From NCBI RefSeq assembly GCF_003731635.1, contig NZ_RCUA01000032.1, forward strand, positions 188,598 through 252,597: a DNA stretch of 64,000 bases, given 5' to 3'. The stretch is from Marisediminitalea oceani (lineage in GTDB: Bacteria; Pseudomonadota; Gammaproteobacteria; Enterobacterales; Alteromonadaceae). The notes under the pieces are model-generated. The model did not search any database and was not told the origin of the DNA. It saw only the letters and a list, made by a program, of their open reading frames with translations. Each line of letters starts with the position of its first letter. Positions within the stretch are counted from its first letter, which is position 1. Shown one piece after another: positions 58,592 through 63,431 of the stretch. The position numbers were made by a program, and so were the translations under genes.

Positions 58592-58864
58592 ATGATTGTG
58601 AAGGTTAACACCGCGAAAGATTTAAGTGCCGTTATCAGAGACAGCAGAAAGTCCAGAGGCTGGACGCAAGCTAACTTAGCTAAACGTATCGGCGTCTATC
58701 AAAGGGATATTTCTAACTATGAAACAAAACCTGAAAAAGTCTCTGTCGATATGCTCATCAAACTCTGTGCAGCACTAGACTTAAAATTGACTGTCGACGA
58801 CCAGCCTAACAATGAAGTGTCTGCAACGACTGCGCCTATCGATAAGAAATCACTGAGGTTCTAA
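58592..58864 (+). CDS. HipB-like XRE-family transcriptional regulator (antitoxin-type)
   Basis: 90 residues. Helix-turn-helix KSRGWTQANLAKRIGVYQRDISNYE, followed by VSVDMLIKLCAALDLKL and a flexible Ser/Thr-rich tail, exactly like HipB antitoxins. Its stop overlaps the next ATG (TAATG), the arrangement used to couple antitoxin and toxin translation. But the next frame has only 23 codons, so the usual HipA kinase is absent. Confidence 0.85.
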   Translation: MIVKVNTAKDLSAVIRDSRKSRGWTQANLAKRIGVYQRDISNYETKPEKVSVDMLIKLCAALDLKLTVDDQPNNEVSATTAPIDKKSLRF

Positions 58865-58976: not shown

Positions 58977-59405
58977 TTACAGATGCTGACTCATATAAGC
59001 CAGTGCGGTTTCAAACGCGGATTTCTGAAAACCTTTTAAACCGGTCTCGCTGAATTCTATAAACACGCGACTTTCTTTTAACGCCGTTTTAATCTCGGTG
59101 GGCGGCATTACGATAACCTGCACCCCGTTTAGCAACTCCAGCGCCGCCTCTAATTTAAAGCCAATAGCGCCACCAGCAAACTTGCCCTTCATCGGGCGCT
59201 GGCGGATAACGATGGTCTCAATCTTATAGTCCTGCACCAGTTGCGCGAAGGATTTCTGAAAATACTTAAGCTCATGAGCAGTAGCGGCTTTTTGTAAACT
59301 CAATTTACGGGTACGGCAGTCAGGAAGCTGAATCAGGCCATTTTCCAGATTCATCAGGGCAATGTTGGCATCATTTCCGGCCAGTTCTACACCACATACA
59401 CGCAT
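58977..59405 (-). CDS. DUF3010 protein
   Basis: 142 residues, DUF3010 pattern: VCGVELAGNDANIALMNLEN, a FQKSFAQLVQDYKIETIVIR segment, RPMKGKFAGGAIGFKLEAAL and a C-terminal FQKSAFETALAYM. The N-terminal strand-turn and the overall plan recall the RNase H-like fold, but the function is not established. Convergent or unrelated to its neighbours. The 160 bases to 59565 hold no clear gene. Confidence 0.88.
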   Translation of the reverse strand: MRVCGVELAGNDANIALMNLENGLIQLPDCRTRKLSLQKAATAHELKYFQKSFAQLVQDYKIETIVIRQRPMKGKFAGGAIGFKLEAALELLNGVQVIVMPPTEIKTALKESRVFIEFSETGLKGFQKSAFETALAYMSQHL

Positions 59406-59565: not shown

Positions 59566-61260
59566 CTACCACTCTTCGAGTTGCTGGAAGTCTTTGATTC
59601 GGTCCCGCTGTAGCGTGAGCGCTTCAAAGACGTCCTCAAAACTACGGTTGCTATCAGGCAGATTTGGCAACGCGAGATTAGCCTGGATAAAAAACTCGTC
59701 CGCAAAATCAGACCAGCCTTGTTGCCACCACTCTGTAATGATTCGTCTGTTTTGCTGCAAACGGGCGGAGCTGGGCAATTTGTCTGATTTTCTGGCGTTG
59801 ATGTGCATCTTAGCAGGAAGCAGATTCCATAAATCGTTATTCGGCCATCGGGAAAATGGCATAGCGTGATCGATTGCATAACCCTCCGCCACGAGTTTTT
59901 TCCCCGACCAGCAACAGTTTACTTTTTCACTCTCAAGCAAAGCGTTTACCCGGCTTCTTACCCGCGCGGTGGTTCTGCGTGGATCTTCCCAGGTTAACGC
60001 TTTAAGCAAATCAGATTGAGAGAACGCCATCGCCTGTTTTGCCGTGTAGGTTTGCATTAATGCCGCCCACTCATTTACCAGCGAGGGCTCAATCCACACA
60101 CTGAATCTGGCCAGCGAATCCCAGATACTTACCGGAATATAAAAACGCCCGAAGGATTTCATAAAGTCAGCATCAAGAACAACGCCACCAGAAGGTTTAC
60201 TGGTGCGTTTACTCTCGACATGAAATATACCCTGCTCTGTGCCAGGCAGAGTAATGTATCGCACAGGCATATCCCGTATGGTGAACGTTACATCTTTCAG
60301 CGTTTGATATACCGCACGAGCAATATCGACATTCAGATAAGTGGCGCCGATATAAAAATCGTTAGCCGTAAAAGAGCGCAGTTCCTGCCATCCGCCCTTT
60401 TTAACAAACCCCAGTCCTTTATTCCGGTTGCTACTTTGGGGAATCTCAAAGTGATCGATCAGCGGTTTAAATAGCTTTATCCAGTAAAGAGCAACCAGTC
60501 CTACAGGTAATACCACATGCTCTTTGGTGCGTTCAAGAACCGCACCGGGATGACCCTCGGCAATTCTCAGCAAGGTACGCAACAAAGCAACTTTGTACGT
60601 CGAAGACTTATTATCGTTAACAATAATGTTGCGCAGCAGGGGGAATGCCCCCGAACCGTCATCAGGTAAGGTAAGTATTACCGTTTGCCAGTGAACATCA
60701 TCCCGCCCCAACTCATCGGCATTGACCTGTTCGCTAAGCAACCGAAATGACAGACCAAACTTGCGGGCAAACCCCGAAAGCTCATCTGCTGACACCGGGT
60801 ACATAGTGCGTTCGTCATGGTTCGCGCCATGACGCAACGAAATAATGATTTTTCCGTTAGCTTTTAGCAGGGAGCTAAGCTTACGAATACATCGCTCACG
60901 CTCAGAAGGCGCAATATGCATCCAGACAGCACTGATTAAAATCAGATCAAACTTTGTTTGCAGGCTGAACACCTGATTAAGCTCAGGCAGTTTGTCATTC
61001 AACCAGTGAATCGGCTGATTAACCACATATTGCTGGGCGCGTTCACGAATGCCATCAGCAGGTTCAACAGCAACAACACTCAATCCTTTATCAGCAAGAA
61101 AACGGGCATCGCGCCCTGACCCTGCGCCAATATCCAGCACAAAGCCTTTTTCAGGTATTTCAGAAAGCCAGTCGCCATGTACTTTTTCAAACGCTACGCT
61201 GTTATATTGATTAGCGAGTCTTTCAGCGTGAGTTGAATAGTATTTAATGTTTTCGGACAA
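59566..61260 (-). CDS. Fusion: class I SAM methyltransferase + HNH endonuclease
   Basis: 564 residues in one uninterrupted frame. Residues about 1-195 are a Rossmann methyltransferase with motif I VLDIGAGSGRDARFLA (41-56) and VVAVEPADG; it lacks the NPPY or PCQ catalytic motifs of DNA methylases, so a protein, RNA or small-molecule target is equally possible. A middle region of about 250 residues has HVVLPVGLVALYWIKLF. Residues about 447-497 are an HNH nuclease: CCWSGKKL, then IDHAMPFSRWPNNDLWNLLP and HINARKSDKLP. The start is TTG, with AAGGA at slightly long spacing. It is divergent from the dcm locus, 290 bases away. Defence role inferred from architecture and neighbours. Confidence 0.82.
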   Translation of the reverse strand: MSENIKYYSTHAERLANQYNSVAFEKVHGDWLSEIPEKGFVLDIGAGSGRDARFLADKGLSVVAVEPADGIRERAQQYVVNQPIHWLNDKLPELNQVFSLQTKFDLILISAVWMHIAPSERERCIRKLSSLLKANGKIIISLRHGANHDERTMYPVSADELSGFARKFGLSFRLLSEQVNADELGRDDVHWQTVILTLPDDGSGAFPLLRNIIVNDNKSSTYKVALLRTLLRIAEGHPGAVLERTKEHVVLPVGLVALYWIKLFKPLIDHFEIPQSSNRNKGLGFVKKGGWQELRSFTANDFYIGATYLNVDIARAVYQTLKDVTFTIRDMPVRYITLPGTEQGIFHVESKRTSKPSGGVVLDADFMKSFGRFYIPVSIWDSLARFSVWIEPSLVNEWAALMQTYTAKQAMAFSQSDLLKALTWEDPRRTTARVRSRVNALLESEKVNCCWSGKKLVAEGYAIDHAMPFSRWPNNDLWNLLPAKMHINARKSDKLPSSARLQQNRRIITEWWQQGWSDFADEFFIQANLALPNLPDSNRSFEDVFEALTLQRDRIKDFQQLEEW

Positions 61261-61550: not shown

Positions 61551-62909
61551 ATGACGAATAAATCAGATTTAGAGCTTATACAGCAGCTTCTGGAAATTTA
61601 TGACCAAAAGGCGGTTGCAGAGTTTTTAAATGAAGTATCTCCTGACCGCTGGTGCAGAGAAACCCTGAACCGTTGGGTAAAAGGAAAAGCTTCACCAAAA
61701 CTAACTCACAGCGAGTACCTTACATTAAAGGAACTTATACCCAGCCCTAAAGTTACAAAAGAAAACTGTGAGTTTAGATTCATCGATTTATTTGCCGGTA
61801 TTGGCGGGATTAGGAAAGGTTTTGAGGATGCTGGCGGCTTATGCGTTCTGACCAGCGAGTGGAACAAATACGCAGTCAAAACTTATAAAGCCAACCACGG
61901 TAGTGACGAGAGTATTCATAAATTTAACGAAGATATTCGTCAGATCACCCTGTCTGAAGATGAAAGTATTTCAGAGGCAGAAGCATATGAGCATATAGAA
62001 AAAGAAATTCCGGAATATGACGTGCTTCTGGCAGGCTTTCCATGCCAGCCTTTCTCAATTGCCGGAGTATCCAAGAAAAACGCTATGGGTCGCGAGCATG
62101 GTTTTGAATGTAAGACTCAGGGAACACTGTTTTTTGATGTTGCGCGAATTATTGCCGCTACTAAACCTAAAGCCTTCGTGCTGGAAAATGTGAAGAACCT
62201 GAAAAGCCATGATAAAGGTAAAACTTTTCGAGTCATTATGGAGACTTTGAAAGAACTTGGTTACGAAGTGGCTGACGAACGGTATGAAGGAACGCAGGAC
62301 CCTAAAATTATTGATGGCAAGCACTTTCTTCCTCAACACAGAGAACGTATTGTACTTGTTGGGTTCCGCAAGGATCTTAATGTCCATGACGACTTTTCAT
62401 TGAAAGGTGTACTACAACAGAAACCCGAACAACCTGTGTCTCTCGGGCAAATACTCGACAAAGAAGTAGATGAGAAGTACATACTTACACCGAAGCTCTG
62501 GAAATACCTTTACGATTATGCCGCCAAGCATAAAGAAAAGGGGAATGGCTTTGGTTTCGGGTTGGTAAAAGAGAATTCTGTTGCAAGGACATTGTCGGCG
62601 AGATATTACAAGGATGGTTCCGAGATCCTTGTAGACAGAGGATGGGACTTTGAGAAAGGATTCGATGACGCGGAGAACCTTGAAAACAGACCCAGACGTC
62701 TTACTCCTTTGGAGTGTTCACGTTTAATGGGATTTAGCGCGCCCGGCTCAAGTGACTTTAAAATCCCGGTTTCAGACACCCAGGCTTACAAGCAATTCGG
62801 TAACTCGGTTGTAGTACCTGTCTTTGCAGCTGTAGCAAAGTTAATGAAACCCCGGATACTCCAGGCAATCATTAATGATAACCAGAAGAAAGTGGATGAT
62901 GCTGCCTAG
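61551..62909 (+). CDS. dcm: DNA cytosine-5 methyltransferase, Dcm-like (probable CCWGG)
   Basis: 452 residues. Like E. coli Dcm it has an N-terminal helical extension ([20 protein letters not shown]) before the methylase core: [17 protein letters not shown], catalytic Cys165 in [52 protein letters not shown], and [14 protein letters not shown] with [14 protein letters not shown]. The target-recognition region ([39 protein letters not shown]) is very close to E. coli Dcm, so the same sequence, 5'-CC(A/T)GG, is expected. The stop is 3 bases before vsr. Confidence 0.95.
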
Positions 62910-62912
62910 CAG

Positions 62913-63431
62913 ATGACTGACGTTCACTCACCTAAAGTCCGTTCTAAAAATATGCGCGCTATTAAGGCGCGCAACACCAAACCTGAAATAAAAGTAAGAA
63001 AAGGCCTTCACAGGCTGGGCTTCAGATACACTTGCAATAAAACAAACCTTCCTGGTAAACCCGACCTGTATTTTAAAAAGTACAAATCGGTGATTCTCAT
63101 AAACGGCTGCTTCTGGCATGGCCATAACTGCGACTTGTTTCACTGGCCTTCTGCAAAAAGAGAATTCTGGGTAAAAAAAATAACTGATACTCAAGAAAGA
63201 GATATGAGGAAGATCAATGAACTACTGGATCGAAACATCAAAGTCCTGTTAATTTGGGAGTGTTCATTGAAGCGCAAGGAACAGTTGGCTAATGCTATAG
63301 AAATGTCTGCTAACTGGCTTAAAAATCAGAACAATATATTTTCAGTGATTGATAAGGAAGGACTCCACAATGTACGAGAAATTGACAGATATTTTCGACG
63401 CAGTCGCAGTAAAGTACCTGACGGCAGTTGA
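62913..63431 (+). CDS. vsr: Very short patch repair endonuclease
   Basis: 172 residues. Nicks next to T:G mismatches that arise when 5-methylcytosine deaminates at Dcm sites. N-terminal TDVHSPKVRSKNMRAIKARN, catalytic Asp in GKPDLYFKKYKSVILINGCF, and zinc-binding CFWHGHNCDLFHWP, as in E. coli Vsr. It is placed directly after dcm as in E. coli, though spaced rather than overlapping here. Its last 62 bases overlap the next gene in another frame, so the longer C-terminus (IDRYFRRSRSKVPDGS) is probably an extension relative to the E. coli protein. Confidence 0.95.
   Translation: MTDVHSPKVRSKNMRAIKARNTKPEIKVRKGLHRLGFRYTCNKTNLPGKPDLYFKKYKSVILINGCFWHGHNCDLFHWPSAKREFWVKKITDTQERDMRKINELLDRNIKVLLIWECSLKRKEQLANAIEMSANWLKNQNNIFSVIDKEGLHNVREIDRYFRRSRSKVPDGS

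Follow-up and report, generated by a model that had tools for sequence, protein, structure and literature searches.

A methyltransferase-HNH nuclease fusion of Marisediminitalea oceani, probably an undescribed immune module

The fused gene and its locus

We analyzed a stretch of 64,000 nucleotides from Marisediminitalea oceani (assembly GCF_003731635.1, contig NZ_RCUA01000032.1), referred to below as the window. The genes and domains near its end are as follows.

59566..61260, minus strand: fused methyltransferase-HNH gene, 564 amino acids, TTG start (open reading frame, Pfam)
60664..61260, minus strand: class I SAM methyltransferase domain, residues 1-199, a separate gene in relatives (Pfam, alignment); residues LDIGAGSGRDAR (D43, G45, G49, R50, D51), H115, R151, D182, R186 and W191
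59971..60663, minus strand: helical middle domain, residues 200-430, with the motif NDxKxxTYKxALLR
59716..59970, minus strand: Cas9-like HNH nuclease, residues 431-515 (Pfam, alignment, structure comparison)
59569..59715, minus strand: C-terminal helices of the fused protein, residues 516-564 (model)
61551..62909, plus strand: Dcm-type cytosine-5 DNA methyltransferase, divergent neighbour (PRK10458 above cut-off)
62913..63431, plus strand: Vsr mismatch endonuclease
63397 (about)..64000, plus strand: EcoRII-C restriction endonuclease, running past the window end (409 amino acids in locus L078)
58977..59405, minus strand: DUF3010 gene, a chromosomal flank common to some relatives

The initial annotation described one intact gene joining a SAM methyltransferase, a conserved-looking middle domain and an HNH nuclease. 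The open reading frame and Pfam confirmed this, with Methyltransf_25 at residues 41-136 (E 1.8e-11) and HNH_4 at residues 455-496 (E 2e-6), both over their curated cut-offs. A Shine-Dalgarno-like AAGGA was seen by eye just 5' of the TTG start, and the gene was the single match in a search of the host genome. Both domain types were present in all 120 listed of 2414 homologues, according to a precomputed Pfam column. The gene was also found, as described, to face a Dcm/Vsr/EcoRII-like locus in an A+T-rich end: 290 bases separate the start codons of the fused and the Dcm-type gene, and the G+C content was 0.40-0.47 over 58-64 kb, compared with 0.48-0.56 in most earlier 1-kb windows and 0.46 in a few. 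A HipB-like regulator lies at 58592-58864; it scored below the HipB cut-off and has no adjoining HipA, and its match in genome G048 (L079:5813-7392) is followed by a HipA kinase gene. Just beyond EcoRII-C, L078:14388-15701 (window coordinates 64790-66103) encodes DUF4325/STAS-like and histidine-kinase-type ATPase domains.

The first domain has the Rossmann fold and the motif I glycines and acidic residue of class I SAM methyltransferases. Its top Foldseek hit was 3h2b (probability 1.00), and the nearest folds in the search were small-molecule or uncharacterised methyltransferases. DNA methylases carry the catalytic motif PCQ or [DNS]PP[YFW]. The motif IV region of the window protein reads FDLILISAVWMHI, so that a DNA-methylase motif IV is absent, and Pfam found no DNA-methylase family in the protein at E up to 1. 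The earlier statement that these catalytic motifs are missing was thus borne out, and with neither a family model nor a catalytic motif the domain was not assigned to the m5C, N6A or N4C DNA methyltransferases. In an alignment of 187 fused rows (500 amino acids or more, some redundant, the window gene present twice), the key SAM residues were identical in 187/187 rows. Among solved structures, the one closest to a split Acinetobacter methyltransferase is RPA2492 (PDB 3e23; E 1.1e-24), an uncharacterised SAM methyltransferase. It differs in being a free protein without a nuclease, and the profile of the fused family matched it only at E 1.6e-7.

In the HNH part, D464, H465, N479, N488 and K491 were invariant in all 187 fused rows. 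We take D464-H465 and N488 to be the counterparts of the Cas9 HNH residues. The catalytic residues are thus D464-H465 and N488 instead of the His/Asn/His named beforehand, and all of them are present. The loss of HNH or SAM-binding residues, named beforehand as a finding that would speak against the proposal, did not occur in any of the 187 rows. The structure model has a strand-strand-helix order at 461-491, and Cas9 HNH rows were among the structure matches of this part, with modest Z. The part thus has the beta-beta-alpha metal fold, Asp-His and Asn of the HNH_4/Cas9 type, and metal-dependent DNA cleavage is predicted. Cas9 and IscB combine HNH with RuvC; Pfam found no RuvC part in the window protein, which was not assigned to them. 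The view of the middle domain as conserved held up, as K218, K223 and R228 of its motif were kept in 187/187 fused rows. No fold match was found for the middle domain, with VIA rows lying mainly on residues 231-362 of the C-terminal model, and the C-terminal part had no Foldseek match at E up to 0.001.

The protein was compared with known systems. It lacks the PLDc, helicase and DUF3427 parts of a SauUSI-type enzyme, all of which are present in neighbours of its relatives. Its best PADLOC match was mad2 of MADS (E 2e-14), in which residues 34-170 match only positions 288-418 of the 492-position model, short of a full-length match. PADLOC-DB 2.0.0 gave partial matches only to the fused and split proteins. 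As judged from the sequence, the module would be neither a restriction-modification enzyme (by the motif test), nor SauUSI, nor Cas9, nor MADS (by full-length match). We did not find a methyltransferase-HNH fusion described in the open-licence PubMed Central literature. HNH modification-dependent enzymes have DUF262 or a domain that reads DNA or modified bases (SRA, EVE), whereas the window protein has a methyltransferase and an unmatched middle domain. It resembles McrA, TagI, VcaM4I and GmrSD/BrxU (PMC12707154) in that a helper domain is joined to HNH. GmrSD, according to PMC4619093, occurs as two genes or one, as does methyltransferase-HNH.

Distribution and neighbours of the fused gene

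Matches were found in 20 of 59 genomes of the same genus, comprising 17 full-length copies, one split over two frames and two fragments. The C-terminal part matched in 65/246 genomes of the same family, from 22 of 52 genera, a count that includes five remote and several partial copies. In the class, 11 of 369 genomes matched: the window genome and four others carry the fused gene in full length, five carry a free methyltransferase, and one has a partial copy (residues 8-457) near a contig end. A scan of genome contigs returned five loci, one at 43% and four at 89-95%, the latter comprising three titled Alteromonas and one gammaproteobacterial MAG. Nine of 49 matching plasmid records hold at least 80% of the fused gene; the settings of the seven inspected ranged from McrBC with VapBC, through HNH genes, to plain metabolic. 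A scan of viral contigs, sensitive to close relatives only, found no relative, and 3 of 50,697 phage records matched, each in the methyltransferase part only. In Escherichia phage phi458 (L047:2336-3519), a free methyltransferase that shares 40% identity with the window domain lies near an integrase gene and overlaps a 194-residue open reading frame with hydrophobic stretches (by eye); the two are a possible accessory gene pair.

The fused gene had no fixed operon partner, and its neighbours varied among the relatives compared. A recurrent neighbour was a PLDc, helicase and DUF3427 protein with the architecture of SauUSI, a type IV enzyme dependent on m5C/hm5C. In G048 this neighbour (L079) was identified as PADLOC mREase_IV (E 4e-221). 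The studied SauUSI cuts m5C DNA and one polypeptide is described as sufficient, according to PMC3874153; by analogy with that enzyme, the SauUSI-like neighbours found here may also cut m5C DNA.

To quantify the association, we mapped five families across the whole of 80 genomes, of which 75 have a usable fused gene and 5 a free methyltransferase; only the 75 (24 genera) were counted. In genomes of the family, distances refer to the C-terminal portion of that gene. DUF3427 (SauUSI-like type IV) genes lay within 10 kb of the fused gene in 16 of 27 cases (0.15 expected; 11 genera), m5C methylases in 11 of 51 (0.27 expected; 6 genera) and Vsr in 5 of 13 (0.07 expected; 3 genera). The controls were type I HsdR, with 1 of 72 (0.43 expected), and N6/N4 methylases, with 0 of 28 in the 75 genomes (0.18 expected). 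Left out were broken or partial genes (G021, G042, G057, G247, G487, G569, G616, G631), the remote fused group (G434, G449, G570, G632, G644) and the second piece of one m5C gene in G036; leaving out the five free-methyltransferase genomes drops 2 DUF3427, 1 Vsr, 1 m5C and 3 HsdR places. Because related genomes are not independent and binomial p values overstate independence, we put weight on how the partners differ from the controls and on the diversity of arrangements. Partner orientations were divergent, convergent and co-directional.

Against these controls, the fused gene shows the recurrent linkage expected of a defence module. By hand count, at least one of DUF3427, m5C methylase and Vsr lay within 10 kb in 28/75 genomes; none of the three was found within that distance in 47/75, some fused genes in the 75 genomes being close to contig ends. 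The survey of neighbours for defence genes that had been suggested beforehand partly supported the proposal, through the enrichment of SauUSI-like, m5C methylase and Vsr genes. Ordinary contexts, which had been named as evidence against the proposal, turned up for some homologues, and the setting was of a defence type in many relatives. In the window the gene sits beside a restriction locus, but the most frequent of the examined partners is SauUSI-like, and a DUF3427 search found no such gene in the window genome.

Individual loci illustrated the variety. G048 shares the LysR, HipB and DUF3010 flank with the window genome and has a SauUSI-like gene where the window genome has Dcm/Vsr/EcoRII-C. 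The shared chromosomal flank was established for G048, not for G004, G056, G017 and G650. An m5C methylase followed by an HNH gene was found in G004 (by Pfam) and G056 (by cluster); near the fused gene, G017 has EcoRII-C, an m5C methylase and Vsr, and G650 has Vsr with McrBC-like genes. In L082 and L087, Vsr lies 86-95 bases upstream of the fused gene on the same strand. Co-occurrence anywhere in the genome was a weaker signal. Of the 246 family genomes, 60 have DUF3427 genes, and 36 of these 60 lack the fused gene; DUF3427 genes were present in 24/65 genomes with the fused gene versus 36/181 without (p 0.011), a weak link, and in 6/15 genomes with a split form versus 54/231 without (p 0.21), which is no link.

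Split forms and the pairing of the two parts

SauUSI-like genes were also found as operon partners of the same methyltransferase family. We examined 35 of the 36 DUF3427 loci without a fused gene (all but G604); a SauUSI-like open reading frame over 300 amino acids was not seen in two of them (L152, L168). A methyltransferase of the same superfamily abuts the SauUSI-like gene in 8/35 loci, at about 45-47% identity to the window domain in L121, L138, L144 and L156, at 27-30% in L159 and L165, and at 23-29% in L146 and L166. The same was found at 43-45% identity in L122 and L123 from the wider class. This arrangement occurs without an HNH gene in L121, L122, L123 and L138 (43-46% identity for these four) and in L159, L165, L146 and L166. 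In L144 and L156, the SauUSI-like, methyltransferase and HNH genes lie head to tail in an apparent three-gene operon. L154 has a methyltransferase-HNH pair facing the SauUSI-like gene across 90 bases, and in L150 such a pair is 5.5 kb distant from it. The methyltransferases at L146:6277-7254 and L166:6874-7860 are NUDIX-methyltransferase fusions directly 5' of the SauUSI-like gene, and the NUDIX half of the L146 protein matches the PADLOC candidate PDC-S07 (E 1.9e-48). MutT homologues beside SauUSI homologues in Streptococcus are mentioned in PMC7641849.

The split HNH of the L144/L156 type was found in 15/246 family genomes from 8 genera. In 15/15 of these genomes the HNH gene is directly preceded by a methyltransferase gene in the same orientation, with a gap of -40 to +4 bases as measured from first-start open reading frames. 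The gene had been proposed as a single-protein module; although one polypeptide here, it is better understood as a methyltransferase-HNH unit of two genes in its fused form. Long proteins (507-536 amino acids) make up seven of the 15 split HNH, and the five examined among them all carry a C-terminal Peptidase_S24. This LexA/UmuD-type domain follows HNH, behind a coupled methyltransferase gene, in L219, L222, L225, L226 and L227, and possibly reflects control by DNA damage.

Fourteen plasmid records cover at least 80% of the split HNH, and all were inspected. Seven show an annotated, co-directional methyltransferase gene immediately before HNH (in two of them some 300 bases away by the annotation), two have a HIT gene in its place, one (H49) has a 61-residue open reading frame resembling a methyltransferase tail (by eye), and four have neither methyltransferase nor HIT adjacent. 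In H46, one of those four, a methyltransferase gene lies at a distance of 3.6 kb and a SauUSI-like gene is convergent. The HIT-family genes lie directly 5' of HNH on Aromatoleum and Polaromonas plasmids (L204:5660-7032, L205:5568-7035), overlapping in one and 43 bases apart in the other. Two of the 14 plasmid HNH genes lie upstream of BREX genes and one beside type I-Fv cas genes; one plasmid split or HNH-only form lies beside McrC, an AAA ATPase and a type I restriction-modification gene. On Acinetobacter plasmids, a WYL gene and BREX genes lie downstream of a methyltransferase-HNH pair (L206:3400-8981) or of HNH (L212:3977-8981), and type I-Fv cas1 lies downstream of another such pair (L203:5372-8137). 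The L203 methyltransferase matched N6_N4_Mtase below threshold (E 0.009; 16.4 bits, cut-off 26.7). A nucleotide pyrophosphohydrolase follows a Hymenobacter HNH, no methyltransferase is annotated near several HNH relatives, and small open reading frames 5' of free HNH genes (79, 94 and 84 amino acids) shared no family. Standalone HNH genes near BREX are reported, with families not given, in PMC12839542 and may include relatives of the present HNH.

We constructed phylogenetic trees of the two parts. In the methyltransferase tree (42 rows), the enzymes of L144 and L156 belong to the main clade, which holds both fused and free forms; a second set of fused proteins and a second set linked to SauUSI diverge at a great distance. 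The HNH tree (45 rows, long branches present) puts the split genes, L144 and L156 included, in a separate clade, with the fused proteins nearer the free HNH of Deinococcus, Cyanobacteria and others. The branching of the two trees does not correspond. From these sequences, the two parts thus appear to have come together more than once, which if so argues for a working link between them.

Proposed function and alternatives

We propose, with a probability of roughly 0.7, that the gene encodes, as one polypeptide, a mobile immune module of two parts, in which the HNH nuclease cuts DNA and the SAM methyltransferase sets when or what it cuts. An undescribed immune module is probable because the fused enzymes are coupled genes in some relatives, often beside known anti-virus systems. 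At the sequence level, the active sites are kept, the parts are coupled genes elsewhere and combine in more than one way, and the surroundings are enriched in partner systems. In the proposed mechanism, the Cas9-like HNH with the conserved helical domain would cut DNA, presumably invading DNA. A SAM methyltransferase of small-molecule type, not a classical restriction-modification base methylase, would license or direct it. The module would be recruited beside modified-cytosine systems, either SauUSI-like type IV or Dcm/Vsr/EcoRII-type loci. This preference for m5C-related neighbours suggests that modified cytosine is part of the module's role. As the methyltransferase substrate, our first guess would be a nucleotide or modified base, because the NUDIX, HIT and pyrophosphohydrolase partners are nucleotide-handling and the fold relatives act on small molecules; a second guess would be the nuclease itself. 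A bolder and tentative extension is that the methyltransferase family, acting on nucleotides or modified bases, is an interchangeable licensing subunit for unrelated immune nucleases (Cas9-like HNH, fused or encoded by a coupled gene, and SauUSI-type helicase-nucleases), with NUDIX and HIT enzymes as related accessories. Self and invader would then be distinguished through a chemical test or alteration of nucleotides or of modified phage bases, or through SAM sensing. If true, this would be a recognition mode unlike restriction-modification.

Enzymatic (type VII-like) antitoxins silence toxins by covalent modification, and the methyltransferase might likewise modify and silence HNH, which infection or loss of SAM would set free. 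Such a self-controlled toxin, itself compatible with defence, would fit the coupled upstream methyltransferase gene in all 15 split genomes, the HIT gene replacing it on two plasmids, and the LexA-type domain of the five long HNH proteins examined. However, the same methyltransferase family abuts SauUSI-like genes without an HNH gene, and HNH relatives exist without an annotated methyltransferase nearby, which argues that the methyltransferase is not a dedicated guard of HNH; we regard this explanation as somewhat improbable. A repair or nucleotide-pool hygiene enzyme accompanying cytosine methylation, as Vsr does, would not be a defence effector. The bias toward m5C methylase and Vsr neighbours, with none toward type I or N6/N4, would be expected of such an enzyme, as would the closely spaced upstream Vsr of L082 and L087 and the NUDIX and HIT partners. 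This role is unlikely given that the commonest examined partner is SauUSI-like, whose studied homologue cuts m5C DNA (PMC3874153), that split forms occur in BREX, CRISPR and McrBC settings, and that the distribution is patchy.

An ordinary single-chain restriction-modification enzyme, with a methyltransferase protecting host DNA and HNH cutting unmodified DNA, would also place both activities in one polypeptide beside restriction genes, and one split relative gave the sub-threshold N6_N4_Mtase match. We consider it very unlikely, as the window protein has no DNA-methylase family or motif IV, its nearest folds are small-molecule or uncharacterised methyltransferases, and some HNH relatives have no methyltransferase annotated nearby.

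If the immune-module reading is right, it would add a restriction-like module carried by roughly one in four genomes sampled from this marine family (65/246). It would also give a partner to SauUSI-like enzymes, which PMC3874153 describes as working as one polypeptide. With one methyltransferase family beside two unrelated nucleases, the target of the methyltransferase becomes a testable question.
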